Of a stretch of DNA of 64,000 nt, positions 43,045-62,177 are shown one piece after another; position 1 is the stretch's first letter, and each line of letters opens with the position of its first letter. A model generated the notes under the pieces. That model worked only from the letters and a program-made list of their open reading frames with translations, did no database searches and was not told the DNA's origin. The position numbers and the translations under genes were made by a program. This DNA is from Gibbsiella quercinecans (lineage in GTDB: Bacteria; Pseudomonadota; Gammaproteobacteria; Enterobacterales; Enterobacteriaceae): the NCBI RefSeq assembly GCF_002291425.1, contig NZ_CP014136.1:3782001-3846000 (forward strand). The letters run 5' to 3'.

Positions 43045-44013
43045 ATGACATCACTAAACGATCTGGATCTGCGCCAACTGGAAGCGTTCGCCACCGTGAT
43101 CTCTGCCGGCAGCGTGACGGCGGCGGCCAGAGTGTTGGGCCGTTCGCAACCGGCGGTGACTAGGCTTATTCAGGATCTTGAAGCTTCTTTGGGCTACCCG
43201 TTGTTTGTGCGCAATGGCCCGCGCATTCACCCCACCGAACAGGCGCTGAAGCTGCATCAGTATGTAGAAAAGGCGCTGCTTTCGCTGGAGCAGATTCGCC
43301 TGCGGGCGCAGGAGATCGGCCAGGCAGGGGAGAAACCGCTAATGATTGCCGCCACCCCGGCGATGTCTTCCGGTTTATTGCCGGGGGCGTTGGCGCAGAT
43401 GGCGCTGACGGCGGGCGTGCAGATCCTCAGCGACTCGGCTGAACAAACCGCCCATGCCGTGATCACCGGCGAGGCCGATCTGGCCATCAGTAGCCTGCCG
43501 CTGGAGCACCATGCGGTAAACCTGCACTGGATCGGCCAGGCGCGCTGCGTGCTGGCGCTGCCGGAAGCCGATCCGCTGGCGGCCAAGGCGGTGATTAGCC
43601 TGGGCGATTTGGCATCGCGCCCGCTGATTGCCCCGCACAACCCCTGGCGTCTGCGTCGCCGCTTCGATAAGGCGCTGGCAAAGCACCGCACCCGACCAAA
43701 AACGATCGTTGAAACCAACTCCTCTGCCAATATTCTTGCCTGTGTGCGCGCCGGGCTGGGCATCGCCATTCTGGAACCGGTGACGGCCTATGGCCTGCCG
43801 GTGCAAGGGGTGGCGATCCGCGAGCTGGAGATTGATATTCCCTATTACTTTGGCGTGGTCACGCCGCTTGGCCGGGCGCCGAACGAGCGGGTGTTGGCGC
43901 TGGTGGAAGCCCTGGGTAACGTTGCCGCCGCCATGCTGCCCATGTTCCAGCGCCTGGCACCGGGCGAGCACCAGCGGGTGATGCAACTGCTGAATAAGGA
44001 AAAGGCGTTGTAG
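43045..44013 (+). CDS. LysR-family transcriptional regulator
   Basis: 322 residues: HTH at 8-65 (LDLRQLEAFATVISAGSVTA, QPAVTRLIQDLEA) and a substrate-binding domain. It is divergent from FMO-CMD-CMD and is the likely regulator of that unit, possibly also of the tct operon beyond. GGGGAGAAG stands before the ATG at 43045. Confidence 0.88.
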   Translation: MTSLNDLDLRQLEAFATVISAGSVTAAARVLGRSQPAVTRLIQDLEASLGYPLFVRNGPRIHPTEQALKLHQYVEKALLSLEQIRLRAQEIGQAGEKPLMIAATPAMSSGLLPGALAQMALTAGVQILSDSAEQTAHAVITGEADLAISSLPLEHHAVNLHWIGQARCVLALPEADPLAAKAVISLGDLASRPLIAPHNPWRLRRRFDKALAKHRTRPKTIVETNSSANILACVRAGLGIAILEPVTAYGLPVQGVAIRELEIDIPYYFGVVTPLGRAPNERVLALVEALGNVAAAMLPMFQRLAPGEHQRVMQLLNKEKAL

Positions 44014-44375: not shown

Positions 44376-45104
44376 TCAATGCGTTAGCACCTGCTGCAGA
44401 AATTCCCGCGCGCGCTGCGACTTCGGTGCCTGGAAGAATTGCTCGGCGTCGGTATCTTCAACAATCTCTCCCGCATCCATAAACAATATCCGATCGGCTA
44501 TTTTTCGCGCGAAGCCCAGCTCATGTGTTACGCAGAACATGGTCATCCCGTCGTGCGCCAGTTCGGCCATCACCGCGAGCACCTCCGCCACCATTTCCGG
44601 ATCTAACGCAGATGTCGGTTCGTCAAATAGCATTGCGCGAGGCTCCATCGCCAGCGCTCGGGCGATGGCGACGCGCTGCTGTTGCCCGCCGGACAGTTGC
44701 TCCGGATATTTATCGGCGTGCTCCAGCAGGCCGACGCGTCGCAGCAGCGCCTGGCCTTTGCAGAGCGCGGCCGCCTTATTGCGCTTTAAGATCTTTCTCT
44801 GCGGAATCACCAAATTATCCATCACGGTCAGATGTGGGAACAGTTCGAATGACTGAAACACCATGCCGACCTGACGGCGCAGCTCCGGCAAATGGGTATT
44901 TTTATCGCCCAGCTGCATCTCATCGATCTGGATATTGCCCTGATCAAAGGTTTCCAGCGCGTTGATGCATTTAATTAACGTCGATTTGCCGGAGCCGGAC
45001 GGGCCGCAAATAACAACGACTTCGCCGGTATTCACCTGAACGGAGCAGTTCTTCAGCACCTGAAAGTCTCCGTAAGATTTGCAAAGATTGTTGATTTTTA
45101 TCAC
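44376..45104 (-). CDS. Polar amino acid ABC transporter ATPase (GlnQ-like)
   Basis: 242 residues from a GTG at 45104, preceded by AAGGAG at good distance; the longer frame to 45281 lies inside the M20 gene. Walker [11 protein letters not shown], signature [15 protein letters not shown] and Walker [13 protein letters not shown] are intact, with the PAAT-family H-loop [13 protein letters not shown]. It completes the importer whose binding protein and permease are at 50312-51912 across the divergent promoter. It lies 1 bp after the M20 gene. Confidence 0.9.
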
Positions 45105-45105
45105 T

Positions 45106-46341
45106 TTATACTCCTTCGGATAACAGAGAGAACAGGCTGTTCGCCACAACATGCGTGGCCAGACGCAAATCTTCCAGCCGCACGCGTTCGTCGGCGCGGT
45201 GGGCATTCGCTTCGAGCAGCGTGCGTGGACCGGCGCCATACATGATGGTGGGAATACCGGCGCTGCTGTAGAGGCGGGCATCGGTATAGAGCGGCAGGCC
45301 GACCACCGGAATCGGTTCGCCCAGCACGGCTTCGGCTTCCCGGCATACCAGCTCCGCCAGCCGATCGCTGCCCGCCACCGGGGTAAACGGGCGTGCCAGC
45401 AGGATTTGGCGCACCTGAATCGTGATCTGCGGCAGCGTCTCCTCCACGCGGGCGATTAGCGCGCGCATTTCTGCTTCAACCTCTTCCGGGGATTCTTCCG
45501 GGATAATGCGTCGGTCTAGCCGCAGAGTCAGCGTATCAGCCACCACATTGGTATTGATGCCGCCGTTAATTAAGCCGACCACCATGGTGGGATGACCGAT
45601 CCCGGGAATGGCTGAACTGCGCTGCGCCAGACTATCGCGATAGGCGTACAGCGCCTGCAGCAGTTGTACGCCCGCCTCAATGGCATCGGTGCCGCTGTCC
45701 GGCATCGCCGCGTGGGCTGACACGCCCTTCACCGTGATCTCCAGATGCAGGCAACCGTTGTGCGCGGTAACTACGTGGTAGGGCAGCGCCGCGCAGATCA
45801 CGTAATCCGGCTTACTTTTACCGTTATCGAGGATCCAGCCCGGGCCGGTTTGGCCTCCGGTTTCTTCATCGTAGGTCACGTGCAGCTCAACGCAGCCGGC
45901 AAGGGGAGGGGCCAGCTGTTTCAACGCTCGCAACGCGCAGGCGAAGGTGGTGATATCCGATTTGGATACCGCTGCGCCCCGGCCATACAGCCAGCCGTCG
46001 TGGATTTCCGCGCCGTAGGGATCCACGCTCCAGCCCTGGCCAGGCGGCACCACATCGCCGTGCGCATTGAGTGCGATAGTCGGGCCGGCGCCGAAATGCT
46101 CGCGCACAATCAGGTTGGTTGCACTGCGCATGCCGGCACCCTGCACAACGTCCGCCGGCACCTGATGGCGTTCCACCGTGAACCCCATTTCCTCCAGCAA
46201 CTGGGCCGTACGTTCCGCATGCGGGGCGCAGTCGCCCGGCGGATTATCCGACGGCGTCTGCACCAGGGCTTTCAGCATATCGACCTGGGCGGCGAAGTCG
46301 TCGTCAATCAGAGTTGCCAGTCGTTGTTTATCCACATTCAT
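45106..46341 (-). CDS. M20-family deacylase/amidohydrolase (ArgE/DapE-like)
   Basis: 411 residues with ArgE/DapE-type zinc motifs: [20 protein letters not shown] and a dimerisation domain with the [14 protein letters not shown] segment. It removes an N-acyl or N-carbamoyl group or opens an amide in a small amino-acid derivative. In this cluster it would act after the hydantoinase-like enzyme. Located between the ABC ATPase gene and the fused dehydrogenase gene, all read leftwards. Confidence 0.82.
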
Positions 46342-46355
46342 TCAATACGGCCTCT

Positions 46356-49289
46356 TTAGTTGAAACGCTCAATAAGGTAGGGGGAAATATCGATGTCGGT
46401 ATGCCCGCGGGTCATCAGATCGGCCACGATGCGGGCGACAATCGGCGCCAGCGTGTAGCCGTTCGAGGTCACAGCGTTGAAGAAGCCCGGTTTGCCGGGC
46501 ACCTCGCCGATGATCGGCGCGCCGTCGATGTTGACGTTCATGCCGGCCCAACTGCGTAACATATGCAGCCCGCGCAACGGTGGCAGCACGTTGGCGGCGA
46601 CCCATAAATTGCCTTCGATGCTGCGGCGCAGGGCGTAATTCATGCGCATATCGGCGGAAAAGCCCGCGCTCCAGCCGCCGCCGATCAGCAGGCCGCCGTT
46701 GACGGTCTGTTTCAGGCTTAAATGGCGGTCGGCATGGGCGATCAGGTGGTCGATCATTTTGGGTGCCCGTTCAGTCACGATCATCTGCAGCGGTGCGCCG
46801 CGTACCGGAACGTTAATACCGGCCATCTGACCGATGCTGCCGGCCCAGGCGCCTGCGGCGTTGACCAGCCTCCGGGCGCGGATAACGCCGCGGCTGGTAG
46901 TGACGCGATAGCCGCCTTCGCGCAGCGTTTCTATCGACAAAACGTTGGTGCCGCGTTGGAAGCGCGCTCCCTGTTGCCGAGCCAGACGGCCAACCACATA
47001 GGTGGCGCGCAACGGGTTGATTTTTCCCTCCAACGGGCAGAATTCCGCCCCTTTCAGCGTTGGCGCAAGGTGCGGCGAAAGACGCAGCAGATCCGCCTGG
47101 CCCAGCAGTTCCGCTTCAATGCCGTAGCTGCGCTCCATGCGGATTTTTTGCTCAAGGAAACGCAGCCCTTGTTCGCTGTCCGCGACCATCAGGCCGCCGG
47201 TGATTTTGATCTCCAGCGACTCGCCGCTCAACGCTTCCAGCATTTGCCACTGACGGATGGCGTGTGGGCCGAGCGGCAGCGTCTGGGCTGCCGGGCCGCC
47301 GCCGGCCTGCGCTTTCTGGCCGAAATCAAATGACAATAATTGGACGTGCAGACTGCCGGCATTGGCGCCTGAAGCCTGCATATTGGCCTCGTCGCGGTCG
47401 ATCACCAGAACGTCGGCGCCCTGACTGGCCAGGTAATAGCCCAGGCAATTGCCCAGCACGCCGGCGCCGATGGTCAGGATGTCGACAGATTGTTCTGGCA
47501 GCGTATCGCTGACCACCGGCCGGGCGAGGTTGGGGGTGATGGCCGGGAAGTGGCCGCCCCATTCCGGTTTTTCGAACGTTAGGGCGGCGATCGGAACGGG
47601 TTTGGCCGGCACTCGGGGGGCGAAAAATCCTTCCACGTCGGGCTGGCGCCCGGTCATTTCGCTGATTAAGCGGGCAGCGACGCCGGAACAGTAGCGCCCC
47701 TGGCAGGGGCCCATACCGAGCCGGGTATTGCGTTTTAGCATGCCGGGCGTGTCATAGCCCTGTTTGATCTGGTTGCGAAGCTCGCCAAGGGTGATATTTT
47801 CACAGCGGCAGATCAGCGTGTCGTCGGGCAGATGGGACAGACTAACCGGCGGCGCCTGGTAAATACGCCACAGCGCGCGCTGAAAATCCTCCGCCCGCCG
47901 CAGCTTCGCTTCCGCCTGACGCCGCGCGGGCGCATTGTCGCCAAGCCCCAGCGCGGCGGCGGCGGCCAGTCCGGCCAGCGTGCCGCGGGCTAACGCCACG
48001 CGGGAGCCGCCCAGATCCGCGCCGTCGCCCACCACGAACACCCCGTCGACGCTGCTGGCGCCGGCAGGATCGGTTTTAATGGCCGGCGTACTGAACGGGG
48101 TGTCGCGCAAGTATTGCTCGCAGCCCAGCATGCGCGCCAGCTCGGTGGAAGGAATAAAACCGTGGCCAAGGCAGAGCACATCGCACTCGATACGCCGCTC
48201 GCTGCCGGGCACGACCTGGCCTGACGGATCAAACCGGGCAACGGTGATCGCCTCGAGCCGTTCAGCGCCGTGTGCGGCAATCACTGTCTGCCCCCAGTAC
48301 ATCGGTACGCGGCCCAGTTTCAGCCGCGCGATATATTTCTGCCCTTCGGCGATCAGGTCCGGCGCATTTTTCAGTAGCCTCAATGCCTGTACGCTGTCTT
48401 TCAGGCCGGGCCGGGGGGCGGTTTCCAACAGCGCGCACACGCTGGCACCGCCGGCGGTCAGATCGGCCGCTAGCTGTAGATTCAGCGGGCCATTGCCGCT
48501 GATCGCGATACGCTGGCCGGGCATAACCTGGTAAGCCCGCGATAAAGTTTGCGCCGCACCGGTGGTCATGACGCCCGGCAGGGTCCAGCCGGGAAAGGGC
48601 ACCGGCCGTTCATAGGCGCCGGCAGCGATGATCAGTTTACGGGGACGAAACAATCTCGCTTTACCGTCGATCAACACCGCGATTTCATCGGCTGCAAAGG
48701 CGCCCCAGACGGTAGTGTTCTGATACAGGGTAACGCCAACATCCTTCAACTGTGTAAGGAGGGAGAGTCCATTGGCGAACTGCGCCGGCACCCGGCGGAC
48801 AAAGCGGTGCGATGGCGCCAGCGGTTTATAGAACTGCCCGCCGCTTTGCGCCCGTTCGTCGAGGACACAGACTTTCGCCCCCTGGCGTGCGGCGGCCAGC
48901 GCGGCGGAGAGCCCCGCAGGCCCCGCGCCCACCACCAGCACATCACAGGTTTCCAGCGGCGGTTCATTTTCGCACGGCGTATTGCTCAGCGCCTGGCGCT
49001 GGTCAAGGGTGGACGGCGCACTGCTGATCTGCATGCCGTTCGCTACTTTGGTCATACAACTGCGTTGCCCAGGACAGCCGTCGACTTCCACCACGCACTC
49101 GAAACAGGCACCCATGCCGCAGTATAGCCCCCGACGATCGCCGCTCTGAGTCTGGCGAATGCTGACCAGATCGGCTCTTGCCAGCGCGGCGGCGATGGTT
49201 TCCCCCTGCTGGGCGGGAATCGGGGTGCCGTTGAACCAGATCTGGATCGTCGGAGAATCACATTCAATTGAGGGATGAATAAGGCGCAT
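46356..49289 (-). CDS. Fused HcnA-HcnB-HcnC-like iron-sulfur flavoprotein dehydrogenase
   Basis: 977 residues from the ATG at 49289 (AGGA upstream; a longer start at 49337 would run through the operator). Modules in order: [2Fe-2S] ferredoxin-like domain with C57, C62, C65 and C78; pyridine-nucleotide-disulfide-type FAD domain, GAGPAG at 121-126; BFD-like [2Fe-2S] domain with C494, C496, C529 and C534; D-amino-acid-oxidase-type FAD domain with GAGVLG at 608-613. Opine oxidases, HCN synthase and D-hydroxyproline dehydrogenase usually split these into two or three subunits; here all are in one chain. It probably oxidises a secondary or D-amino acid at the membrane or in the cytoplasm. Confidence 0.85.
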   Translation of the reverse strand: MRLIHPSIECDSPTIQIWFNGTPIPAQQGETIAAALARADLVSIRQTQSGDRRGLYCGMGACFECVVEVDGCPGQRSCMTKVANGMQISSAPSTLDQRQALSNTPCENEPPLETCDVLVVGAGPAGLSAALAAARQGAKVCVLDERAQSGGQFYKPLAPSHRFVRRVPAQFANGLSLLTQLKDVGVTLYQNTTVWGAFAADEIAVLIDGKARLFRPRKLIIAAGAYERPVPFPGWTLPGVMTTGAAQTLSRAYQVMPGQRIAISGNGPLNLQLAADLTAGGASVCALLETAPRPGLKDSVQALRLLKNAPDLIAEGQKYIARLKLGRVPMYWGQTVIAAHGAERLEAITVARFDPSGQVVPGSERRIECDVLCLGHGFIPSTELARMLGCEQYLRDTPFSTPAIKTDPAGASSVDGVFVVGDGADLGGSRVALARGTLAGLAAAAALGLGDNAPARRQAEAKLRRAEDFQRALWRIYQAPPVSLSHLPDDTLICRCENITLGELRNQIKQGYDTPGMLKRNTRLGMGPCQGRYCSGVAARLISEMTGRQPDVEGFFAPRVPAKPVPIAALTFEKPEWGGHFPAITPNLARPVVSDTLPEQSVDILTIGAGVLGNCLGYYLASQGADVLVIDRDEANMQASGANAGSLHVQLLSFDFGQKAQAGGGPAAQTLPLGPHAIRQWQMLEALSGESLEIKITGGLMVADSEQGLRFLEQKIRMERSYGIEAELLGQADLLRLSPHLAPTLKGAEFCPLEGKINPLRATYVVGRLARQQGARFQRGTNVLSIETLREGGYRVTTSRGVIRARRLVNAAGAWAGSIGQMAGINVPVRGAPLQMIVTERAPKMIDHLIAHADRHLSLKQTVNGGLLIGGGWSAGFSADMRMNYALRRSIEGNLWVAANVLPPLRGLHMLRSWAGMNVNIDGAPIIGEVPGKPGFFNAVTSNGYTLAPIVARIVADLMTRGHTDIDISPYLIERFN

Positions 49290-49310
49290 TTGATCCTGTC
49301 CAAAAAAAGG

Positions 49311-49348
49311 TTGCATACACATTGTATACGTATACACTTCGTATGCAA
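49311..49348. promoter_or_regulatory. 38-bp nested palindrome, candidate GntR operator
   Basis: A perfect 14-bp inner palindrome TGTATACGTATACA (49323-49336) is flanked by arms TTGCATAC (49311-49318) and GTATGCAA (49341-49348). All share one centre at 49329.5, with 16 of 19 base pairs symmetric. It lies between the divergent dehydrogenase (start 49289) and DapA-like (start 49376) genes. Inner and outer parts can be read as tandem or overlapping sites for the GntR protein at 53380. Confidence 0.75.
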
Positions 49349-49375
49349 TAACCTCATTTACATTTGGACAGAACG

Positions 49376-50275
49376 ATGGAAACTTTTCGCGGTACCTATA
49401 CGGTTTTAGTCACTCCATTTACTCCGGATGGAGCAGCAATTGACGTGCCAGCATTGGAACAGCTGGTGGAATGGCAAATAGAACAGGGAATTCATGGGCT
49501 TATTCCGCTTGGTAGCACCGGCGAGTTTTTGTCGATGACGCGGGAAGAGCGACAATTGGTCACCGAAACGGTGATTCGCACCAGCAGAGGGCGTGTGCCC
49601 GTGCTAATGGGCACCGGGGCCGAATGGACCCGCGACTGTATCGAACTCAGCCGGGAAGCGGAGGCGATGGGAGCGGATGGCGTGATGATCATTCCGCCGT
49701 TCTATAGCTGCCCGAATGATGATGAGCTCTTCACCCATTACCGCAAAGTCGGCGAAGCGATCAGCATTCCGATCATGATCTACAACAACCCGGCTACGGC
49801 GAATGTTGATCTGCAACCCAAATTGGTCGCGCGGCTGGCGCAGATTGATACGGTGAATTACATCAAGGAATCGACGCTGGAAGTCACCCGGGTGCGCGAC
49901 ATCATCGAACTGTGCGGCGACAAAATGAACGTATTCGCCGGCATTCTCGGTTATGAATCCTTCTGGCTGGGCGCCTGTGGCTGGATTGCCGTCGCCTCTA
50001 ATCTGCTGCCGCAACTGTGCGCCCAGATGTTTGAAGCTGCGGTGGACCGGCAGAACCGCGACGAAGCGCTGGCGATCTATAAACAGATCGTGCCTGTCGT
50101 CCGGGCCGTGGGCGGGCCATTCTATGTTTCGGCCAGCAAAGCCGGGCTCGATATGCTCGGTCTGCCGGTCGGCGATCCGCGCGCGCCGCGTTTGCCGCTG
50201 GAGGCGTCCGCCCAACAGGCGTTGCGCCAGGCGCTGGATAAGCTCGGTGTGCTTAATAGCATCAATATGCAGTAA
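49376..50275 (+). CDS. DapA-family lyase/deaminase (not lysine biosynthesis by context)
   Basis: 299 residues from the ATG at 49376; a TTG at 49364 is less likely. It is a TIM-barrel class I lyase of the dihydrodipicolinate synthase superfamily: PLGSTGEF binding loop at 45-52, Y136 in IYNNPAT and Schiff-base K164 in NYIKEST. In catabolic clusters such enzymes are keto-acid aldolases, dehydratases or 1-pyrroline-4-hydroxy-2-carboxylate deaminase. Next to a D-amino-acid-type dehydrogenase and a transporter, one of these roles is expected here. Confidence 0.85.
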   Translation: METFRGTYTVLVTPFTPDGAAIDVPALEQLVEWQIEQGIHGLIPLGSTGEFLSMTREERQLVTETVIRTSRGRVPVLMGTGAEWTRDCIELSREAEAMGADGVMIIPPFYSCPNDDELFTHYRKVGEAISIPIMIYNNPATANVDLQPKLVARLAQIDTVNYIKESTLEVTRVRDIIELCGDKMNVFAGILGYESFWLGACGWIAVASNLLPQLCAQMFEAAVDRQNRDEALAIYKQIVPVVRAVGGPFYVSASKAGLDMLGLPVGDPRAPRLPLEASAQQALRQALDKLGVLNSINMQ

Positions 50276-50311: not shown

Positions 50312-51142
50312 ATGAAAAAATTGTCTGCTTTGCTTCACGCTGTTGCGCTGTCCGGGCTGTTGGTTAGCACGGGATCTTTCGCCGCCGCCTGTAGCGCGCC
50401 AGCCGGCGCGCAGCTGATCGTTCCCGGTCAGTTAAATATGTCCACTAACCCGACGCTGCCGCCTTTGCAGTTTGTTGATAACACTGGCCAACTGAAGGGG
50501 ATGCGTATCGAGCTGGGCAAAGAGATCGCGAAGAGGCTATGCCTTGAACCGAACTATATTCGTATCGAGTTTTCCGCCATGGTGCCGGGGCTGCAGGGCG
50601 GCCGCTGGGACATGATCAATACCGGCATTTTCTTTACGCCGGAACGCGCCAAAATCATGTGGATGATCCCGTATGAAAATCAGTCAGTGGGCCTGTCGAC
50701 GATCCCGGACAACCCAGCCGGTATCAGCAAGCCTGAGGATCTGGCAGGTAAGCGCGTGGGCGTGGAGATCGGCGGTTTTGAAGAAAAAGCGATCCGCCGT
50801 GTCAGCGCTGAGCTGCAGGCTAAAAAGCTCAAGCCGATTGAGATCCTCACCTTTGATAACTTCGCCATCGCTTTTCAGGCGTTACGCGCCGGCCAAGTGG
50901 ACGCAGTGATCAGCCTGGATGCTGTGGCCAATGAATACCAGCGGCAGGGACAGTTTCGCCAGGTGATTTCCGGCCTGGAGCCAACGCCGGTTTCTCTTGC
51001 GTTCCGCGATCGCGCCCTGGCGGAGGCCACGGCGAAAGTCCTAAACGAGATGCGTGCCGATGGCAGCCTGGATGCCCTGTTTAAACGCTTTAATGCGCAA
51101 ACGACGTCCGGAACTTTTACCGTTCACGGCCCTTCCTTGTAA
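50312..51142 (+). CDS. ABC transporter substrate-binding protein, family 3
   Basis: 276 residues from the ATG at 50312 (GGGGAAA upstream). Signal peptide with core LLHAVALSGLLVSTGSFA; mature part begins ACSAPAGAQLIVPG and includes GMRIELGKEIAKRLC and the ligand-site MVPGLQGGRWDMINTGIF. It binds the cluster's substrate, probably an amino-acid-like or cyclic compound, in the periplasm. Followed at 23 bp by the permease gene. Confidence 0.88.
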   Translation: MKKLSALLHAVALSGLLVSTGSFAAACSAPAGAQLIVPGQLNMSTNPTLPPLQFVDNTGQLKGMRIELGKEIAKRLCLEPNYIRIEFSAMVPGLQGGRWDMINTGIFFTPERAKIMWMIPYENQSVGLSTIPDNPAGISKPEDLAGKRVGVEIGGFEEKAIRRVSAELQAKKLKPIEILTFDNFAIAFQALRAGQVDAVISLDAVANEYQRQGQFRQVISGLEPTPVSLAFRDRALAEATAKVLNEMRADGSLDALFKRFNAQTTSGTFTVHGPSL

Positions 51143-51165
51143 CTGCCTTACGGGAGAGATGAGCA

Positions 51166-51912
51166 ATGAATCACGGCTGGAGCTGGGCAGGCTACTTCGA
51201 GTACCTGTTCAATCATTATTTAATGATGGGTGTTGTTTATACCATCTGTCTTACCCTGGTGGGGATGCTCGGAGGCCTACTGCTGGGTGCGTTAGTCGCT
51301 TTCTCCCGCCTCTCCCCGATAGTCTGGTTGAGCCAGACGGCCAAATTCTATACATGGATATTCCGCGGCACGCCGTTGCTGGTGCAGTTAATCATCATCT
51401 ATACCGGCCTGCCGCAGATAGGTATTCGCTTTACCGTTGTGGAGGCGGTGCTGATTGGCCTGATTCTGAACGAGGCCGCTTATCTGGCCGAGATTATCCG
51501 CGGCGGCGTGCAGGCGGTCCCGCGTGGCCAGATCAACGCGGCGAAAGCGCTGGGGTTCGGCGGTGTAGGCGTGCTGCGCTACGTCATCTTTCCCCAGACG
51601 ATGCGGCTGATCCTGCCGTCTCTTGGCAACAGTTTCAACGGCTTGCTGAAAACTACCTCGATTGCCTCGGTGATCTCGATGGAAGAGCTGCTGCGCCGTA
51701 CGCAGATGCTGATTCAGGAAAAGTTTATGGTGCTGGAGCTGTTTATGGTGGCCGCCACCTATTACCTGATTCTGACCACGCTGTGGGATCTGATACAGCG
51801 CCGCATTGAGCGACATTACGCTAACGCTTACCGCAGCGAGCATACGCCGAAGGACGAAAAGGCCGGGGCGGCGATCGGCGCCGGCAACAAATTAAATAAC
51901 GAGACGCGCTAA
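51166..51912 (+). CDS. Polar amino acid ABC transporter permease
   Basis: 248 residues with about five membrane helices. The HisMQ-type motif is visible in RGTPLLVQLIIIYTGLP and AAYLAEIIRGGVQAVPRGQI, and the EAA loop in AAKALGFGGVGVLRYVIFPQ. Only one permease gene is present, so a homodimer is expected. It overlaps the hydantoinase ATG by 1 base. Confidence 0.9.
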   Translation: MNHGWSWAGYFEYLFNHYLMMGVVYTICLTLVGMLGGLLLGALVAFSRLSPIVWLSQTAKFYTWIFRGTPLLVQLIIIYTGLPQIGIRFTVVEAVLIGLILNEAAYLAEIIRGGVQAVPRGQINAAKALGFGGVGVLRYVIFPQTMRLILPSLGNSFNGLLKTTSIASVISMEELLRRTQMLIQEKFMVLELFMVAATYYLILTTLWDLIQRRIERHYANAYRSEHTPKDEKAGAAIGAGNKLNNETR

Positions 51913-53330
51913 TGAAAGCATATGATCTGATCATCCGCCGGGCCGACATCGTAACTGCGGCGGATCGCTTTACCGGCGATATCGGTATTCATCAGGGGCG
52001 GATTGTCGCCATTGGCGAACGGCTTGATCCGGCTCTGGCGGAACAGACCATTGACGCGGCGGGGCGGATGGTGACGCCGGGCGGGGTAGACGCGCATTGT
52101 CATCTCGATCAGCCTTCGGCCGACGGCTCTGTCGGTTCCGACGACTTTCTCACTGGCACCCGCTCGGCCGCTTGCGGCGGCACCACCACAGTGATCCCGT
52201 TCGCCATGCAGTTTAAGGGGCAAAGCCTGGATGACGCGGTGGCCGATTACCATCGGCGTGCCGACGGTAAGGCCTGTATCGACTATGCCTTCCACCTGAT
52301 CATCAGCGACGCCGCGCCCGACGTGGTGAATGAACAACTGCCACGCATGGTGGCGTCTGGCTATAGCTCATTTAAAATTTACATGACCTATGACGCGCTG
52401 AAACTCAGAGATCGCGACATTCTTGACGTGCTGGACGCATCGCGCAAACTGGGGGCGCTTAGCATGATCCACGCGGAGAACGACGACTGCATCAGTTGGC
52501 TGACTGAACGTCTGTTAAAGCAGGGTAAGAGCGCGCCGCGTTTCCATGCCGTTGCGCATAGCGCGATCGGCGAGAGGGAGGCGACGCACCGGGCGATTTC
52601 GCTGGCCGAACTGGTCGATGTACCGATTTTACTGGTGCACGTCTCCAGCCGCTCTGCGCTGGAGCAGATCTATTGGGCGCGTGGCAAGGGGCTGAATATT
52701 TTCTCTGAAACCTGTCCACAGTATCTGTTCCTGACCGCGGAAGATCTGGGGATCGACGATCATTTCCACGGCGCGAAATGTATCTGCAGCCCGCCACCTC
52801 GCGATACCGACAGCCAAAACGCGATCTGGACCGGGCTGACCAACGGCACCTTTAGCATTTTTTCGTCCGATCATTCGCCCTATAACTATGACGATCCGCA
52901 CGGCAAGAAACTGCATGGCGATAACGCCTCGTTCGATCGGGTGCCCAACGGTATTCCGGGGCTGGAAACGCGTATGCCGTTATTGATGAGCGAAGGGGTG
53001 CTGAGCGGCAGGCTGACGCCGCAGCGGTTTGTCGAGCTGACCGCGACGGCGCCCGCAAAGTTGTACGGGCTGTATCCGCAGAAGGGTACGCTGTCGATCG
53101 GCGCCGATGCGGATATTGTTATCTGGGATACACAGAGCGATAAAACGATCCGCCATGCGGATCTGCATTCGGCTGCCGATTACACGCCGTATGAGGGTAA
53201 GGCGCTGCGCGCCTGGCCATCGATCACGCTGGCGCGCGGCAAAGTAGTATGGGCCGATGGGGCTTTTTGTGGCCAGGCGGGCGACGGGCGCTTTTTACCC
53301 TGCGCGGCGCCTTTCCCTCCGGCCATATAA
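51912..53330 (+). CDS. Dihydropyrimidinase/D-hydantoinase-like cyclic amidohydrolase
   Basis: 472 residues, the usual length of the hydantoinase/dihydropyrimidinase family. The metal motif GVDAHCHLDQP (HxH), the carboxylated-Lys region SSFKIYMTY, His residues in MIHAEN and VHVSS, and the metal Asp in SSDHSPYNYDD are all present. It opens cyclic amides such as hydantoins, dihydropyrimidines or related rings. In this cluster it would feed the M20 enzyme and then the dehydrogenase. Last structural gene before gntR; a 49-bp gap follows. Confidence 0.88.
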   Translation: MKAYDLIIRRADIVTAADRFTGDIGIHQGRIVAIGERLDPALAEQTIDAAGRMVTPGGVDAHCHLDQPSADGSVGSDDFLTGTRSAACGGTTTVIPFAMQFKGQSLDDAVADYHRRADGKACIDYAFHLIISDAAPDVVNEQLPRMVASGYSSFKIYMTYDALKLRDRDILDVLDASRKLGALSMIHAENDDCISWLTERLLKQGKSAPRFHAVAHSAIGEREATHRAISLAELVDVPILLVHVSSRSALEQIYWARGKGLNIFSETCPQYLFLTAEDLGIDDHFHGAKCICSPPPRDTDSQNAIWTGLTNGTFSIFSSDHSPYNYDDPHGKKLHGDNASFDRVPNGIPGLETRMPLLMSEGVLSGRLTPQRFVELTATAPAKLYGLYPQKGTLSIGADADIVIWDTQSDKTIRHADLHSAADYTPYEGKALRAWPSITLARGKVVWADGAFCGQAGDGRFLPCAAPFPPAI

Positions 53331-53379: not shown

Positions 53380-54066
53380 ATGTCAGACTATCAGGATCAC
53401 GTGCTTGCCGCGATTATGGCGGCTAAGCCACTTTATCTGAAATCAGCCAGTCTTTCCGAGCAGGTTTACCTGCTGCTGCGGGAGTTGATTCTGGAAAGGA
53501 AAATTCCGGGCAGCAGCGAGATGTCTGAATCGCGGCTGGCTGATGAATTGCAGGTATCGCGCACGCCGATGCGTGAAGCATTGGTCCGACTGGCGGGCGA
53601 GAATCTGCTGGTGAGGCGTGGCGCTCGCTCTTATGCGGTGCGTTCCGTGGATATTAAAGAATATCTGGACACCATGGCGCTGCGCGAGGTGCTGGAGTGC
53701 GAGGCGGTAAACCGCGCGGTAGAGCGTATCGACCTGGACGAACTCGGCCAGTATGCCAGCGAACTGCAGGCGTTGATGTCTGGCGAGCATGAGGAACATG
53801 TATACTGGCGCTTTGATGACCGGCTGCACAATTTTATCGCCGAATCCTCAGGCAATAAAGTGTTGGTGCAAATGCTGGAAAAGCTGCGTATTAATGTGCG
53901 GCTGTTTCGCCTGCACAGCCCGCTGCATCGCCAGAGTGAAAATCATGTCGAGCATCAGGATATTATTTATTACCTGACTCAGCGCGATGCGGTAAAAAGC
54001 GTCGAGGCGATGAGAATGCATATTAGTAAATTGCGTAACGACGTGATTGTTTCTTTATCCGGCTAA
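53380..54066 (+). CDS. GntR-family regulator, FadR-type (FCD domain)
   Basis: 228 residues: winged HTH at about 20-85 (LREL and SRLADELQVSRTPMREALV) and an all-helical FCD ligand-binding domain at about 95-215 (RFDDRLHNFIAESSGN). FadR/VanR types respond to small acids. It closes the catabolic cluster, and the 38-bp palindrome at 49311-49348 is its natural candidate operator. Confidence 0.9.
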   Translation: MSDYQDHVLAAIMAAKPLYLKSASLSEQVYLLLRELILERKIPGSSEMSESRLADELQVSRTPMREALVRLAGENLLVRRGARSYAVRSVDIKEYLDTMALREVLECEAVNRAVERIDLDELGQYASELQALMSGEHEEHVYWRFDDRLHNFIAESSGNKVLVQMLEKLRINVRLFRLHSPLHRQSENHVEHQDIIYYLTQRDAVKSVEAMRMHISKLRNDVIVSLSG

Positions 54067-54230: not shown

Positions 54231-55235
54231 TTAGGCTGCCTGTTTTTCCCGCTCTGGATTCAACATTACCTCGCCTATCGGTTGCCAGTTCCGTGTCCTG
54301 CCAGACCAGCGTTCAGGTCGTTGCGCTTTTGCCATCTGGTACACGTCATCCCGCTTCTTCAGCACCGTGCCATCTTCACCACGGTGCCGTTGGCCTGGCG
54401 TTACATACCTGATGCCGCTATGTCGATGCGTTTCGTTATACCACCGGGTAAAACTCTCTACCCATTCACGCGCATCATCTAACTTGTCGAACCCCGATGA
54501 CGGCCACTGCGGCACATATTTCAGCGTCCTGAACAGCGACTCCACATAGGCATTATCGTTACTGACCCTTGGCCGGCTGTGAGATGGCGTTATTGCCAAC
54601 TCATGCAGCTTCATCTGCAACGTCTGTGACTTCATCGCCGCCCCATTATCCGCATGCAGCACCGGCGGACATTGCCAGCATCCTTCCCGACGTACCGTGC
54701 GCTGTATCAGGGCGGCTGCCTGCTCGCCACTTTCTGCTTCATGCACTTCATATCCCACGATTTTTCGGCTGAAGAGGTCTTCCACCAGATACAGGTAAAA
54801 CCAGCGTCCCTTCACGGTTGACGGGAGCCATGTGATATCCCATGTCCACACCTGATTCGGCCCACTGGCCTGCCAGGTCGTTGCCGGGGTGACTTTCTGT
54901 GCCGCTCGCTGTCGTCCCCTGCGATGCGCTTCTCCATGCCGACGCAGCACACGGTAGAAGGTTGATTCACTCGCCAGATAAATCCCGTTATCAGCCAGCT
55001 CCGGCACGATTTGTGACGGGGGCAGGCTGGCATACGCGGGTTGATGGCACACCGCCAGTATCTGTTGCTCTTCTTGCGCACTTAGCCGGTTCGCCGGCGA
55101 GGGTCTGACTGAGCTGGCACGCTTGTCCTCCATCGAGATTTGCCAACGCCGCCACGTCCGCTCACTTAATCCGGCTTCAGTGAGCGACACCGACAACCGA
55201 GCGCCTGACACCATCGCTTCGCGCACATAACCCAC
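54231..55235 (-). CDS. IS3-family transposase orfB (DDE integrase core)
   Basis: 334 residues from a GTG at 55235, and the frame stays open further upstream, into orfA, so a frameshift fusion is possible. It has an integrase-type rve core: VWTWDITWLPS (first Asp), HADNGAAM (second Asp) and a later Glu region in RVSNDNAYVESLFRTLKYVP. The C-terminus ends NPEREKQAA near the left inverted repeat. Intact-looking. Confidence 0.88.
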   Translation of the reverse strand: MGYVREAMVSGARLSVSLTEAGLSERTWRRWQISMEDKRASSVRPSPANRLSAQEEQQILAVCHQPAYASLPPSQIVPELADNGIYLASESTFYRVLRRHGEAHRRGRQRAAQKVTPATTWQASGPNQVWTWDITWLPSTVKGRWFYLYLVEDLFSRKIVGYEVHEAESGEQAAALIQRTVRREGCWQCPPVLHADNGAAMKSQTLQMKLHELAITPSHSRPRVSNDNAYVESLFRTLKYVPQWPSSGFDKLDDAREWVESFTRWYNETHRHSGIRYVTPGQRHRGEDGTVLKKRDDVYQMAKAQRPERWSGRTRNWQPIGEVMLNPEREKQAA

Positions 55236-55261
55236 CAGGACCTGTCGCTCTGTGCCGGATG

Positions 55262-55765
55262 TCAGTCGTCCTCGTCGGTTTCCCCGTAGAAGTCCCGCAA
55301 CTGCTTTCGGAGCACCAGTATCGCTGCCGCCTCCGCCAGCGCCTTTTCCTTACGAACCAGTTCGCGTTTCAGTTGCTTGACTTCTTTCTGGCTTTGTCTG
55401 AGCGCGGCTTTATCATTAGGCGAAGATACCTGCAAAAATCCTTGTTTCCACTGACTAATCTGCTCAGGATAAATCCCTTTCTTACGGCAGTATTGCGCCA
55501 GTTCCGCTTCACTGAGTGTGGCGGTTTCGATAATCACTGCCAGCCGGGCATCGGCTGACCATTGGTCTGTGGTTTTGTCTGCACCCGGCACCGGTATTCC
55601 CTCTGTTTTCGCCTTGTTACGCCAGTTATAGAGGGTAGCTTCTGATATCCCTTCCATCTGTGCAACTGCGGTGACGGTCATGTTGTAGGGCGGCAGTAAT
55701 TTAGCCAGTGCGGCTGATTTACGTTCTGGTGAAATACGTTTCACGATCGGGTCCCATCTTGTCAT
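55262..55765 (-). CDS. IS3-family orfA, helix-turn-helix protein
   Basis: 167 residues from the ATG at 55765 (MTRWDPIVKRISPERKSAAL); the longer frame to 55915 runs across the inverted repeat and is rejected. It contains a MerR/HTH-like head (VAQMEGISEATLYNWRNKAK), a second helical HTH (YCRKKGIYPEQISQWKQGF) and a Lys/Glu-rich leucine-zipper tail. It would bind the IS ends and pair with orfB. Confidence 0.85.
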   Translation of the reverse strand: MTRWDPIVKRISPERKSAALAKLLPPYNMTVTAVAQMEGISEATLYNWRNKAKTEGIPVPGADKTTDQWSADARLAVIIETATLSEAELAQYCRKKGIYPEQISQWKQGFLQVSSPNDKAALRQSQKEVKQLKRELVRKEKALAEAAAILVLRKQLRDFYGETDEDD

Positions 55766-55801
55766 TAGTGTTTTCGATAGGGGGTGCCATCTATCCTGAC
55801 A

Positions 55802-56116
55802 GAGGGGGCGTATCTGCAGCCTGAAATATGGTGATATACCAAAAACAATTCGCGTTGCAGGAGGGCAGCGGTGCAGAGAGCTATCAGGATAAGCCGGGTA
55901 ACCAAGCCAACACACCTGAAACTTGCAGCATGACCAATATATTATGATTAACTAAATATCCGCTATGCCTGCGAAGAGTGGATGTGGCTTTTGGCCCTGA
56001 TGACGAATTCCTTCCTTTCCGATATCGTTCCACTGCGTTTCTTCAGGCAAAGTGTTGAATATTTGCGGCCGCTGACTGTTTTATACTCATTCTTGAGCCT
56101 TCACAGGGGTAAATGA
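55802..56116. other. Gap with degenerate ERIC-like remnant
   Basis: 315 bp between the IS and the first island ORF. 55831-55940 repeats the ERIC ends in altered form: ATATACCAAAAACAATTCG on the left, CCAACACACCTG and ACTTGCAGCATGA on the right, with the central part diverged. AT content rises from here on. The short piece at 54085-54111 left of the IS, TATACTCTAAATAATTTGGG, is a possible second partial ERIC end. No gene is seen. Confidence 0.5.
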
Positions 56117-56783: not shown

Positions 56784-56882
56784 AGCCGGTTATTCCTGAT
56801 TATGTATGGATCATATTCGGGGTCAGGGTCATGAAGCCGGTTATTCCTGATTATGCATGGATCATATTCGTGGCCAGGGTCA
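56781..56882. repeat. 51-bp tandem direct repeat at the cap3 3' end
   Basis: Two adjoining 51-bp units, 56781-56831 and 56832-56882, share TGAAGCCGGTTATTCCTGAT and the rest with only a few differences, for example GTATGG against GCATGG. The second unit ends on the cap3 stop codon (56880-56882), and the first ends on the same triplet. Confidence 0.8.
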
Positions 56883-57356
56883 TAACAAAGTTATTTCTGA
56901 TTCGCTTTTCGTTCCATTTGGGAGATAGGTGTGAGCAGTTATAATTAGCTCACCTTTCGAACCTGATTTGACAATGACAAGGACCGCGAAGTTTGCTCCA
57001 ACATTTTTATCCTGAACAATTTGAAGCATGGACCTGTCGTCCTTACTGCTGGGGTACGGTTCAAAAGATGGGTGGGAGTGCCATTCACCGATATAGTTAA
57101 ATATCTGATAATTATGGCCTGTTTCGTTAAAAAATTTACTGAACCCACTGATTGCTTCTTCAAGCCGTCTGACAAAGTAGGCAAATGCACCACAACGATG
57201 TACTGTCATTTCGCGTACTATAAATTCATTGGGTCCAATATGTTCCCCCATTAAAACCCCACCAATTTCGCGGCGTCCGGCTTTAGATAGAGCGTCCATT
57301 ATCACTGCCTGTTGTTCAGCCGGAAGAATCAGGTTCAGCACGTTCCTCTCCTTCAT
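56880..57356 (-). CDS. cap3: CBASS Cap3-like JAMM/MPN isopeptidase
   Basis: 158 residues of the JAB1/MPN metalloprotease family. The zinc motif is complete: E38 in GGVLMGEH, then H93-S-H95 and S103xxD106 in EWHSHPSFEPYPSSKDD. Cap3 removes the conjugate that Cap2 places on the cyclic-nucleotide synthase, tuning the type II CBASS response. The start at 57356 overlaps the cap2 end by 41 nt; a later start is possible. Last gene of the operon, ending in the 51-bp tandem repeat. Confidence 0.85.
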   Translation of the reverse strand: MKERNVLNLILPAEQQAVIMDALSKAGRREIGGVLMGEHIGPNEFIVREMTVHRCGAFAYFVRRLEEAISGFSKFFNETGHNYQIFNYIGEWHSHPSFEPYPSSKDDRSMLQIVQDKNVGANFAVLVIVKSGSKGELIITAHTYLPNGTKSESEITLL

Positions 57357-59082
57357 AAATTTTCAGTATTGCTTGTAGGGCAGCTAAACGATCCTCTTCA
57401 CTGACGCTTGTGTCATCGGTATCCCACCCAGCACCAGACACATGGACTGGGTGCGTGTCAAAAGGTTGCTCAAAAATCCACTCACAGCGCATGCCGAGTA
57501 AATATAGAGAGTAAGGGAATACGCTGGGGTCTCTTGATAATGCTGTATCAATAGCAAGCCTGGTTAGCGCTGTAGCGATAAATCCAACATCACTGTCATA
57601 TGCGGTCAGAGGCTGTTCTTCACTGCCATCGTAATTTTGGGCGCTATCAAAAGGTGCTTTAGGAAGAGTTGATAGATGACTATAAAATGCATCGCGAACG
57701 GCCAAAGGGTTTGGGTCATAACCCGGACGGGAACGAGCAATCATTCCCCCGTACCCTCCTGCAAAAATTTCCCCCCAACACAGCGGAATCTTATAGCGTT
57801 TCGCAAGAGCGGACAGCTGAAGAAAAACCTCAGGGTTTGCCGTTGCGTCAATAAGCAGATCGCATTTGGAGAGTTCATTAAGGATGGAAGCCATAAATAC
57901 CGAGGACTCTTGTCCCGCCAGACGAATAATACTTGCATCGACTTCAATGCCCGCAGAAATCAGTGAAAGTGCACTTTTTACGCCTTCTACCTTATGTTCG
58001 CCAACATGATTCCAGTACAGCTCGTGACGTACCATATTGCTGGTAGCCAGGTAATCATCATCAACTAACAAAAATCGCTTTATTCCTGACCGGGCAAGTG
58101 AAGTTGCGATTTTACTACCCATTGAGCCCAGGCCAATGATTCCTACTCTGATCTTCGTCAGTCGTTGTGATTCCTCTGATAACCTAAGCTCTGTGGATGA
58201 AGGAAAAATAATACTGAATTCGTGTATAGTGGGTTCATCACTAGAGGTAAGGTAAAAAGTTCTCACTGATGATCCATCTCTACCTAGTAACGCTATCGTT
58301 CTGGCCTTGTACTTATTATCTTCCTGAACCAGAATGTCTTCTGTATCAAAGCCCTCATCTGATATCGCCTGAATTAAATCTTCTCCAGATTTAATTTTCA
58401 ATCTCAAATCAAATCCTTCACTTTTGAACACCCACCCTTCTCCGGAAAGTGAAAGTAAGTAAGTTAATGCCCCAAGACTTTGTGGAACGTCTTCGACGTT
58501 TTTGAAATTATTCTCTGCATCGGAAATCTGAGTGATGAATGTAACAGCCTTATCAGAACTGAACAGGGTTGCCGTTTTTAAACTGGCTCTGGATAGAGGA
58601 GGAAGATTACTCCAAGTTTCCATGATATCGGTGGTTAGTATTAAGCGCCAGGTCGAACTCCGCAAAATCTGGCCTTCTGTTAAACGATGTGCTGAGGGAA
58701 CTGAATTTGGTAGTTCGGGATGCTGCTCTGTGTTCAGCAACTCAAAGGCACTGAGCACCATATCCGCCCCAGTTACGTCAGGCTGCCAGTTATCTGCTCG
58801 CCATTGCAGACACAATGACCCCCCTTCACCATATTGGTGGTTTGACCATCTCTCGGAACTATCTCTGGGACGGATATAGGGTGGAGAATCTGGAAACGAG
58901 TCCGGATAAGTCATTCTCCCTTCATAAACGCGACCATGAATAGTCATGTTTATTTCTACTGACAACTTACCATCGCCCTTAAAGCGCAAAGCTATGTTTA
59001 GCCACTCTTGCTCACTCTCAAGGCGTTTGAGCTCCTCCTGCTCACGCAAAAAGCGCGCAGGATTCTCCAGTAACCAATTCAT
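57316..59082 (-). CDS. cap2: CBASS Cap2-like E2-E1 ubiquitin-transfer fusion
   Basis: 588 residues: an N-terminal E2-like domain (about 1-160) with likely catalytic C91 in GSLCLQWRADNW, a linker or dimer region, and a ThiF/E1 adenylation domain (about 305-570) with GLGSMG at 317-322 and VDDDYLATSNMVRHEL. C533 (LGMRCEWIF) is the best-placed candidate for the E1 cysteine; C435 is another. Cap2 conjugates the C-terminus of the CD-NTase to target molecules and primes it. Its ATG shares one base with the synthase stop (TGATG). Confidence 0.88.
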   Translation of the reverse strand: MNWLLENPARFLREQEELKRLESEQEWLNIALRFKGDGKLSVEINMTIHGRVYEGRMTYPDSFPDSPPYIRPRDSSERWSNHQYGEGGSLCLQWRADNWQPDVTGADMVLSAFELLNTEQHPELPNSVPSAHRLTEGQILRSSTWRLILTTDIMETWSNLPPLSRASLKTATLFSSDKAVTFITQISDAENNFKNVEDVPQSLGALTYLLSLSGEGWVFKSEGFDLRLKIKSGEDLIQAISDEGFDTEDILVQEDNKYKARTIALLGRDGSSVRTFYLTSSDEPTIHEFSIIFPSSTELRLSEESQRLTKIRVGIIGLGSMGSKIATSLARSGIKRFLLVDDDYLATSNMVRHELYWNHVGEHKVEGVKSALSLISAGIEVDASIIRLAGQESSVFMASILNELSKCDLLIDATANPEVFLQLSALAKRYKIPLCWGEIFAGGYGGMIARSRPGYDPNPLAVRDAFYSHLSTLPKAPFDSAQNYDGSEEQPLTAYDSDVGFIATALTRLAIDTALSRDPSVFPYSLYLLGMRCEWIFEQPFDTHPVHVSGAGWDTDDTSVSEEDRLAALQAILKIYEGEERAEPDSSG

Positions 59083-60146
59083 CAGGCAAACCCCGCTGAT
59101 TTATTAGGTGTGACGGGGTGAGCGGGGAAGGATAGATATGCCGATGCGCTGACAGCTGGGCGCATGAGAGATTTGGACATGTTGGTGTCCTGAGAGATTT
59201 CTGTACTGAAATAATCAGTGTTGAAAACCCTATCCCAGGCAAGCGCGGCTTTTTCACGAGTGCAGTTATACTCTTCAAGCACTTCAAGTACATTTAGCGC
59301 CTCAGTTAGGCATTCTTGAAAGAAAATTACGGCGTCATCGTTTTCTTCTGCAAGATTCTTATCTGCAAACACCGGATGCCCGATGCGCTGGCTATATGTC
59401 AGCTGAGATTTGATGACCTTCCACGTTTCACGTAAAGCATCATCATCTCGGCCCGCCTGACCAACAAAATGATCTACAACTAATTTCGAAATACAAATAC
59501 CGCTGGTGGTTTTCTTTTTCCATGAGGTCCGGGAACGAGCCATTTTCTTGGTCAGCTTTGTAACACGGCGAAGTTGGCTGGTATCAGCCTGACCAGTTTT
59601 AAGCTCTGAACCAACAGCATTGTTGTACCATCGGGTAACCTTACGGGCATCGGATTTAGTCCACTCATCGCCACTGGCGAGCTCATATTCAGTTGTTTCG
59701 TTACCCCAAAAGTCCTTTGTGATAAATGAACGGTATATTGGGATATCGATGTGATAACCATCAGGGTAGAGTTGGCGTACGCAATTTGTCTTAACAACAG
59801 CATTATAGGCCAGCCTGTCGTCTTTCAACGCTTTTCGAACTCGCTTTCGTGCATCCTGCGCACCAAGATAATTACCGTCTCCATCTTTCAGGTCTTCTTT
59901 GTTGAAATAAATTCCGTCATCGATGTCGTAATCACATAAATCGTCCTGGACCATGGTGCGCATCGCATAAGAACCTTGGGAGCTAAATTCTTTTGGCAAT
60001 GGATGGGATGAGCGAGTCAGGCCATTTTCGAGCCGTTTTCTTCCATTATCACGACGGTCACGCATTTCAGACTGGTCAGTGTTTGACAGAGTTACTTTTT
60101 CTGAATGATACCCTTTCATTTCTTTATTGCAGTCAATTAACGTCAT
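59082..60146 (-). CDS. CBASS cyclic-dinucleotide synthase, DncV-like CD-NTase
   Basis: 354 residues, shorter than V. cholerae DncV at about 436. Nucleotidyltransferase motifs: G58-S59 in SSQGSYAMRT, D74 and D76 in DYDIDDGIYF (close to DncV DIDDGTY) and a third acid D134 in YHIDIPIYR. The C-terminus, ending SAGFA, is the expected conjugation site for Cap2. It would make a cyclic dinucleotide, such as 3'3'-cGAMP by analogy, upon phage infection to activate the phospholipase. GGGAG precedes the ATG. Confidence 0.86.
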   Translation of the reverse strand: MTLIDCNKEMKGYHSEKVTLSNTDQSEMRDRRDNGRKRLENGLTRSSHPLPKEFSSQGSYAMRTMVQDDLCDYDIDDGIYFNKEDLKDGDGNYLGAQDARKRVRKALKDDRLAYNAVVKTNCVRQLYPDGYHIDIPIYRSFITKDFWGNETTEYELASGDEWTKSDARKVTRWYNNAVGSELKTGQADTSQLRRVTKLTKKMARSRTSWKKKTTSGICISKLVVDHFVGQAGRDDDALRETWKVIKSQLTYSQRIGHPVFADKNLAEENDDAVIFFQECLTEALNVLEVLEEYNCTREKAALAWDRVFNTDYFSTEISQDTNMSKSLMRPAVSASAYLSFPAHPVTPNKSAGFA

Positions 60147-60169
60147 GTTGATCTCCCAGAGATTTAAAT

Positions 60170-61243
60170 TTAGGTATTAGATTTAATCGACAGGGCGGTT
60201 CGAAATTCTTTCATGTGATTATTTGATTCGGCAAGAGCCCATGCGTAATCAACGTCGGACACTGCCTGCCGGGCTAATGCATTAAGTACTCTTGGACGTG
60301 CGTCATCCATATTTTCGAGGTATTTGTGTAGCTCCCCAGAGGGGCACTGAGCTGGCATTCGGTATGCAAAACTGCCATTGCCTCTCAACTCGGCAATTTT
60401 CCGAGCCATATAATCGTAAGCAACCGCCTGGGCATTCATACTCGCAGTGATTGCTTTGAGGCCGCCGGACCATCCCAAAGCTCCACGGTGCAACATACTG
60501 CTACTGGCAAGTTCCTCACCTCCCTGAACAGGAAGAGTGCCCAGCATGAATAAGTGTACAGGGCGTTCAGTCTCGCCCCTGAGCTGGAGAATTTCATGGG
60601 CTTCGATCATGCCTACAGCACCTGGATTATTAGCCCAGAGCCCACCGTCAACGTAATCGACGATTGCTCCGCCAGAGCCTGGCTCCTCAAGGCGTGCGAT
60701 TGATCGGAGGATAGGTGCAGCACTAGTTGCCATACATACATCAACCAGTAGTCGATCATTGTCTCGTCCATTTAGGCGAGCCATATGCGGTGTTTTAAAT
60801 ACAGTTGAGGAGTGACGATTTAAATCTAAAGTAGTGATGGCTAAACCGATCCCTCGGCGTTCATAAACTTTGCCAATAGTTTCTTCACCAAAGGTATCTT
60901 TAAGCACTTTACGTAAGGCAAATTCACCTGAAGCTAGTCCCGAGCACAACCCGCGAACGTATTTACCTACAAAAGGAAGGGCACGAAGTCGCTGCCGTGG
61001 AAAAATATCTTTACCGTAAGTCTGGTAAAGCTCGAGAACCTTCTCAAGCTGAATACCAGCGGCTAATGCGCAGGCAACGATCCCTCCTGTACTGGTACCT
61101 ACCAGTAGATCGAAGGCAGAACCAGGGTCAGACTGTTTAAAACCTGTCTGACTTAGCCTTTGAGAAAAAGTCTGTAAGTAGGTGGCCTGATAAACACCAC
61201 GCATTCCACCACCGTCTAAGCACAAAACACGAAATGGGTTCAT
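60170..61243 (-). CDS. capV: CBASS effector, patatin-like phospholipase CapV
   Basis: 357 residues from the ATG at 61243 ([16 protein letters not shown]); a TTG at 61261 could add six. Patatin motifs: oxyanion loop DGGGMRG (10-16), nucleophile S51 in GTSTGG, dyad D199 in VDGGLW. In V. cholerae and E. coli, CapV is switched on by cGAMP and degrades membrane lipids, killing the infected cell. First gene of the operon capV-CD-NTase-cap2-cap3, the same order as the V. cholerae VSP-1 locus. No clear Shine-Dalgarno is visible. Confidence 0.9.
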
Positions 61244-61245
61244 TT

Positions 61246-61294
61246 GCACTATATATGCCAAAAGAAAAATGGGTTAGTTACTATATATAGTGAT
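61246..61294. promoter_or_regulatory. Two NrdR-box-like sites just upstream of capV
   Basis: 61279-61294 (TTACTATATATAGTGA) contains a perfect 12-bp palindrome and is close to the NrdR consensus ACACWATATATWGTGT. 61246-61261 (GCACTATATATGCCAA) matches its left half, 33 bp away, and lies directly before the capV ATG. They may be operator sites of NrdR or of another regulator; no regulator gene adjoins the operon. Confidence 0.45.
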
Positions 61295-61984: not shown

Positions 61985-62177
61985 TCATGACTCCTTGCTG
62001 CCCCAGATTTATAGTGTCAGAACCTGAATAATCTAGCATAAGAGTTCCTATGAAACTTCCGCTCTTGGCACTCTGAGGACGTTCGGCCCCCTCCAACTAT
62101 TGCCGGAAGGGCCGTCAGTGCTGACGGCAAACACTTCTCAGTTGTGGCTTATTCATCGATGCATCATCCACAACAGA

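Follow-up and report, generated by a model that had tools for sequence, protein, structure and literature searches.

A candidate tandem operator for an FCD-type GntR repressor: two abutting pairs of GTATAC-type boxes between divergent catabolic operons of Gibbsiella quercinecans

The DNA analysed here—a 64,000-nucleotide stretch of the Gibbsiella quercinecans genome, 'the window'—contains two operons that diverge from a gap of only 86 bp, flanked by the ATG of a leftward oxidase gene (49289) and the ATG of a rightward DHDPS-family gene (49376). The genes and the sites discussed below are collected in Table 1. The large protein that opens the leftward operon is a fusion that resembles sarcosine or opine oxidase subunits joined together. 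The rightward operon ends with the gene for a regulator of the FCD-type (FadR-subfamily) branch of the GntR proteins: an N-terminal winged helix-turn-helix domain (PF00392, 47.8 bits against a cut-off of 27) is followed by a C-terminal FCD domain (PF07729, 67.3 bits against 24.3). D146, H150, H192 and H214 of this protein are unchanged across four aligned proteins and may correspond to the conserved Asp/His residues of the FCD metal site.

Table 1. Features of the divergent cluster and of the intergenic element (window coordinates)
Feature	Position	Strand	Remarks
Leftward operon, further genes	44376..46341	-	
Amino-acid-type ABC ATPase, leftward operon	within 44376..46341	-	
M20 peptidase/deacylase family, leftward operon	45106-46341	-	
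Fused Fer2 / pyridine nucleotide-disulphide oxidoreductase / BFD / DAO protein, leftward operon gene 1	46356..49289	-	977 aa
38-bp element TTGCATACACATTGTATAC / GTATACACTTCGTATGCAA	49311..49348	.	arms 49311-49329 / 49330-49348, 19 nt, gap 0
Possible weak sigma-70-like promoter, DHDPS operon	49311..49338	+	TTGCAT 49311-49316, 16 bp, TACACT 49333-49338; by eye
Left operator copy, GCATAC + GTATAC	49313..49329	.	N5 = ACATT; PWM score 18.8 (site in training set)
Possible weak sigma-70-like promoter, oxidase operon	49321..49348	-	TTGCAT 49348-49343, 16 bp, TACAAT 49326-49321; by eye
GTATACGTATAC core, two abutting boxes	49324..49335	.	centres 6 bp apart; invariant in 8/8 close orthologous promoters
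Right operator copy, GTATAC + GTATGC	49330..49346	.	N5 = ACTTC; PWM score 19.8 (site in training set)
DHDPS/aldolase family (PF00701), rightward operon gene 1	49376..50275	+	
Remaining rightward operon genes before gntR	50312..53330	+	
Solute-binding protein, rightward operon	up to 51142	+	
ABC permease, rightward operon	51166-51912	+	
Dihydropyrimidinase/hydantoinase family, rightward operon	51912-53330	+	
FCD-type GntR regulator, final rightward-operon gene	53380..54066	+	PF07729 + PF00392, operator co-occurrence

Within its family the cluster has a foreign appearance, and it may have been acquired horizontally. Among the DHDPS matches listed from 147 genomes (own included), none from another genome exceeds 40% identity, so the cluster is rare in the family. 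A search of Escherichia coli genomes with the promoter and the DHDPS gene gave no match. Variovorax plasmids, by contrast, carry the entire cluster in identical gene order, with proteins 53–72% identical. Our literature search on the chemistry of the cluster turned up no paper on it. The right side of the window has a mobile look of its own: immediately downstream of gntR lie two ORFs (54231-55915) that by eye resemble an IS3-type transposase pair, and an integrase-like ORF occupies 63022-63897. At 56880-61261 there is also a complete-looking type II CBASS-like defence operon (PADLOC matches), composed of a patatin-like phospholipase effector, an oligonucleotide cyclase, an E1-E2 protein and a JAB protease.

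In the middle of the 86-bp gap sits a 38-bp palindrome, noticed when the DNA was first read by sequence alone and borne out here by a repeat search and by simulation. Its arms are complementary at 16 of 19 pairs (84%), which places it first among the even-centred palindromes with 19-bp arms in the window. Sixty Markov-1 simulations of 64 kb produced a single palindrome of 16/19 in total and none higher, or about 0.02 expected per window; 60 more, with A+T-rich intergenic composition, produced none at 16. The runner-up in the window (62138-62176) reaches 15/19 about position 62157. The repeat search also returned a 13-nt direct repeat inside the element (49315-49327 and 49332-49344, spacing 17). 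Four GTATAC-type boxes can be read along the element: GCATAC (49313-49318), GTATAC (49324-49329), GTATAC (49330-49335) and GTATGC (49341-49346). Boxes 1 and 2, and likewise 3 and 4, are separated by 5 bp (11 bp from start to start), and box 3 follows directly on box 2 (6 bp from start to start). Two exact GTATAC and two GYATRC-type boxes thus provide the GT-N2/3-AC palindromic core given as the consensus for the subfamily (PMC4494728). The element is better described as two abutting 17-bp copies of GYATAC-N5-GTATRC.

What is conserved in relatives agrees with this description. Close orthologues were defined by a DHDPS protein at least 70% identical together with a divergent oxidase. The non-redundant set comprises eight loci, the window and seven from Burkholderiales (L065, L073, L074, L091, L175, L176 and L178); L066, L174 and L177 were excluded because they duplicate, or nearly duplicate, L065, L091 and L073, respectively. 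L175, L176 and L178 came from a DHDPS search (E up to 1e-90) of 399 genomes from the family of a Variovorax genome. Nine of the genomes had a match, five of them at 71–72% identity and with a divergent oxidase, including the genomes of L073 and L091. The matches in the other four (L179-L182), 55–57% identical and in a different neighbourhood, do not figure among the orthologues counted here, and the strict site is absent from their genomes. The presence of gntR was checked at the orthologue loci apart from L175, L176 and L178. All eight promoters contain GTATACGTATAC-N5-box, the last box being GTATAC, GTATGC, GTACAC or GCACAC, so that the right operator copy is matched throughout. By this comparison, the site appears to be conserved in orthologous promoters together with its regulator. 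The left outer box fares differently. It is present in three of the eight—the window, L065 (and its near copy L066) and L176—and its absence from most orthologues indicates that the full set of four boxes is not generally required.

The sequence-only reading had interpreted the palindrome as concentric overlapping dimer sites, an inner TGTATACGTATACA and outer TTGCATAC/GTATGCAA around one shared centre, and had proposed a search for the same palindrome upstream of homologous clusters. The symmetry of the window about 49329/49330, with outer arms complementary at 8/8 positions, invites that interpretation, and the search did recover the GTATACGTATAC-N5-box in all close orthologues; the outer left arm and the dyad are mostly lost. 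Dyad symmetry across the 38 bp falls from 16/19 in the window to 6–10/19 in the eight other close loci examined (two of which, L065 and L066, are nearly copies of each other), and we rejected the dyad as a conserved unit on these grounds. In the relatives L075, L076, L077 and L067, moreover, the two-box site GTATAC-N5-GTATAC occurs without a shared centre. Two palindromes set end to end are automatically palindromic about their junction, and so acquire a nested look without any concentric binding. Concentric sites are, we conclude, very improbable; the units would be two adjacent two-box copies, instead.

The distribution of the motif follows that of the regulator. Fourteen two-box sites went into a position weight matrix (PWM): the two in the window plus those at loci with a GntR protein at least 42% identical or with a close-orthologue promoter. 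The matrix was applied to 80 loci with GntR relatives, ranked by GntR similarity. A locus was scored positive when its best match exceeded all of 40 Markov simulations. Seventeen of the 19 loci with GntR bits of at least 106 are positive, versus one of the 61 below. Fourteen of the 19 lie outside the training set, and 12 of these 14 are positive, counting L076, which is approximately a copy of training locus L075, and two pairs of close relatives, L080/L082 and L087/L088. The two misses, L089 and L090 of Rhizobium leguminosarum, have helix-turn-helix domains nearly equal to that of L080, which is positive. In both, around position 9122, a degenerate sequence of no significance (PWM 2.7–4.4) occupies about the same place upstream of a solute-binding protein gene. 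The positions of 17 PWM matches were examined, and none falls inside a cluster-gene match; most precede a cluster operon or gntR where such neighbours were found (at L079 and L085 by ORF inspection), and one, at L092, has no cluster gene nearby.

In the 5.55-Mb own genome GTATACGTATAC occurs in a single exact copy, with one further match at one mismatch; the same pattern written backwards, our control, gives 19 forward matches. GYATAC-N5-GTATRC occurs four times: twice in this element, once in the promoter of a paralogous cluster and once, at 3480270, inside an ORF, which is why we took that last copy for chance. The stricter GTATAC-N5-GTATRC is present in 18 of the 147 genomes (own included), and every match to it in the own genome falls at the two clusters. 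The paralogous cluster (L067, own genome 3206000-3224000) comprises a hydantoinase, a DHDPS-family protein, an ABC transporter and an oxidase in several pieces. Its GntR protein is 42% identical to that of the window, and the motif is found both upstream of its gntR, at 4870-4886 of that locus, about 70 bp ahead of the start of the gntR match, and in its divergent promoter, as a three-box array. The two regulators may cross-regulate.

The same co-occurrence weighs against a regulator of another kind. The pattern of half-sites is not peculiar to GntR proteins: the operator of DitR, a TetR-family protein, is given as CATAC-N5-GTATG, with a footprint on it (PMC9342713), and both its half-site pattern and its 5-bp spacer match those of the inner part of the window's sites. 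A gene for a LysR-type protein (43045-44013) lies about 5 kb from the element. Among ten cluster and flanking proteins scanned, however, there is no TetR protein, and orthologous loci show at most partial LysR matches of 32–38% identity in differing places (in one comparison, only matches of at least 35% were considered). LysR was rejected as the regulator because no LysR gene occupies a shared place in these loci. Both Variovorax plasmid loci, found without using gntR, turned out to contain gntR, and over the 80 loci the motif follows GntR similarity. That the operator serves a TetR- or LysR-type protein is, accordingly, very improbable.

That the element works as RNA, forming a leader hairpin on one side or both that serves as attenuator or stabilizing stem, is far more doubtful still. 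None of 200 shuffles folds as well as the + strand (z -3.5), but any comparable palindrome would fold, and the palindrome suffices to explain the hairpin; no terminator-like site was found, Rfam gave no match across 49000-49700, and the orthologues keep the boxes while losing the symmetry. A chance palindrome, of which some 0.02 per 64 kb might turn up in a scan over many windows, is close to negligible given conservation of position and sequence across Burkholderiales and the paralogous cluster.

How might the element act? With start codons only 86 bp apart, both promoters should lie on or beside it, unless they reach into the coding regions. An automatic promoter scan found none at the element; by eye, a possible weak sigma-70-like promoter can be drawn in each direction, the two overlapping one another. 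In seven Burkholderiales promoters, again by eye, TTGNNN stands 16–17 bp before TATACT, which falls on box 3 and the next base. We consider it highly probable that the element serves the cluster's own FCD-type GntR repressor as a tandem operator, placed to shut both overlapping promoters, and one repressor can probably silence both operons. The sequence-only reading had already suggested a GntR site, present twice in this divergent catabolic promoter, from which one regulator could close both transcripts; comparison upholds this much of it. In the absence of inducer, GntR dimers would occupy the boxes and cover the overlapping -35 and -10 regions of both promoters in the gap, repressing the oxidase-M20-ABC operon on one side and the DHDPS-transporter-hydantoinase-gntR operon on the other. 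Binding of the substrate, or of a pathway intermediate, in the FCD domain would then release the protein. As gntR is the last gene of the rightward operon, the regulator would repress itself, too.

The general scheme is well known: an FCD-type GntR repressor acts from a palindromic operator within a divergent promoter, in some cases with extra boxes or with repeated boxes that are bound cooperatively. Among the closest parallels is Atu1419 of Agrobacterium fabrum, a repressor of the FCD/VanR group (PMC7797058). As described there, it shares with the window's regulator the FCD-type architecture, a palindromic site containing GTATAC (ATGTATACAT in Atu1419) and the presence of two sites in a divergent promoter. 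In the crystal structure Ser44, Arg45, Thr46 and Arg49 contact GTATAC DNA, and this Ser-Arg-Thr-x-x-Arg helix is conserved in the window's protein as S60-R61-T62-x-x-R65, with the same spacing in the alignment. The SRTP-x-R helix is common to essentially all of the GntR relatives listed, so it does not explain specificity. The Atu1419 sites are 190 bp apart and a tetramer can bridge them and loop the DNA, whereas the boxes in the window are 11 and 6 bp apart. In the sources as consulted, GTATAC is linked to FCD-type GntR proteins through Atu1419 and, by way of a primer, through CitO. Searches for the motif strings themselves (GTATACN5GTATAC, ATACN5GTAT and variants) gave, by title and abstract, no paper on a GntR protein.

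Two further systems bear on the repetition of the boxes. NanR of Escherichia coli, also of FCD type, reads short boxes repeated at fixed spacing, (GGTATA)3, to which several dimers bind cooperatively (PMC8012715). By that account the NanR boxes are direct repeats, and an N-terminal extension of 32 residues is required, whereas the boxes in the window, also regularly spaced, are palindromic, with the pairs in mirror arrangement. About 24 residues precede the first residue of the helix-turn-helix domain in the window's regulator. FadR-subfamily operators are described as GT-N2/3-AC palindromes with weaker extra boxes 7–12 nt from the centre (Suvorova et al. 2015, PMC4494728). The neighbouring boxes at 11 bp in the window fit such extra half-sites, but differ from those in that survey in that the neighbour is about as strong as the first box, and a third abuts at 6 bp.

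It is this phasing that is unusual. Related operators repeat the box every 11 bp; in the window, two pairs meet end to end with an offset of 6 bp. When 18 loci from beyond the close lineage were scanned for a third box, the top-scoring offset lay 22 bp from the first box, another 11 bp on: its mean score is -1.5, against -5.8 for the next best offset and -9.6 (sd 2.3) as the average of those tested; as the set includes the weaker, hand-picked loci L071, L094 and L101, and the better of two sides was used for each locus, these figures are descriptive. The close lineage has its third box at -6, directly against the first. Which unit a dimer recognizes can be argued from conservation in either direction. 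Among 20 sites the leading G of the boxes is present in 20 and 16, and the closing C in 19 and 18, as one would expect if every box formed a complete GT-N2-AC dimer core. The 14 training sites, on the other hand, show slightly stronger conservation of their inner than of their outer bases, a pattern that suits a dimer site of 17 bp. We lean toward one dimer per GTATAC box, because of the GT...AC polarity of the family (PMC4494728) and because Atu1419 is described as binding a single 10-bp palindrome, ATGTATACAT (PMC7797058); one dimer per 17-bp pair is the less likely arrangement, though a serious one.

Within a pair the boxes lie 11 bp apart, one helical turn; the 6-bp step between the inner boxes should place the two pairs on roughly opposite faces of the DNA. 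Tentatively, and with the balance of our judgement still against it, we suggest that this clade of regulators reads arrays of two to three palindromic GTATAC boxes with an 11-bp period, through cooperating dimers, and that the divergent lineage re-phased its array to 6 bp, so that in-phase pairs on opposite faces each guard one promoter; on this view both paralogous regulators of the genome would recognize a common operator, and cross-regulation of the two catabolic clusters could follow. If true, a compact two-sided lock would have arisen from the shift of one box. The 11-bp arrays of most relatives, set against the abutting 6-bp lineage, make dimer phasing on a divergent promoter something that can be tested. 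The element also carries a lesson, that tandem palindromes are easily mistaken for a single nested one. The analysis gives a candidate operator and a matching regulator for an uncharacterized catabolic cluster—fused flavin oxidase, DHDPS-family and hydantoinase-family proteins, and ABC uptake—and a candidate operator, as well, for a GntR clade that extends across Pseudomonadota.
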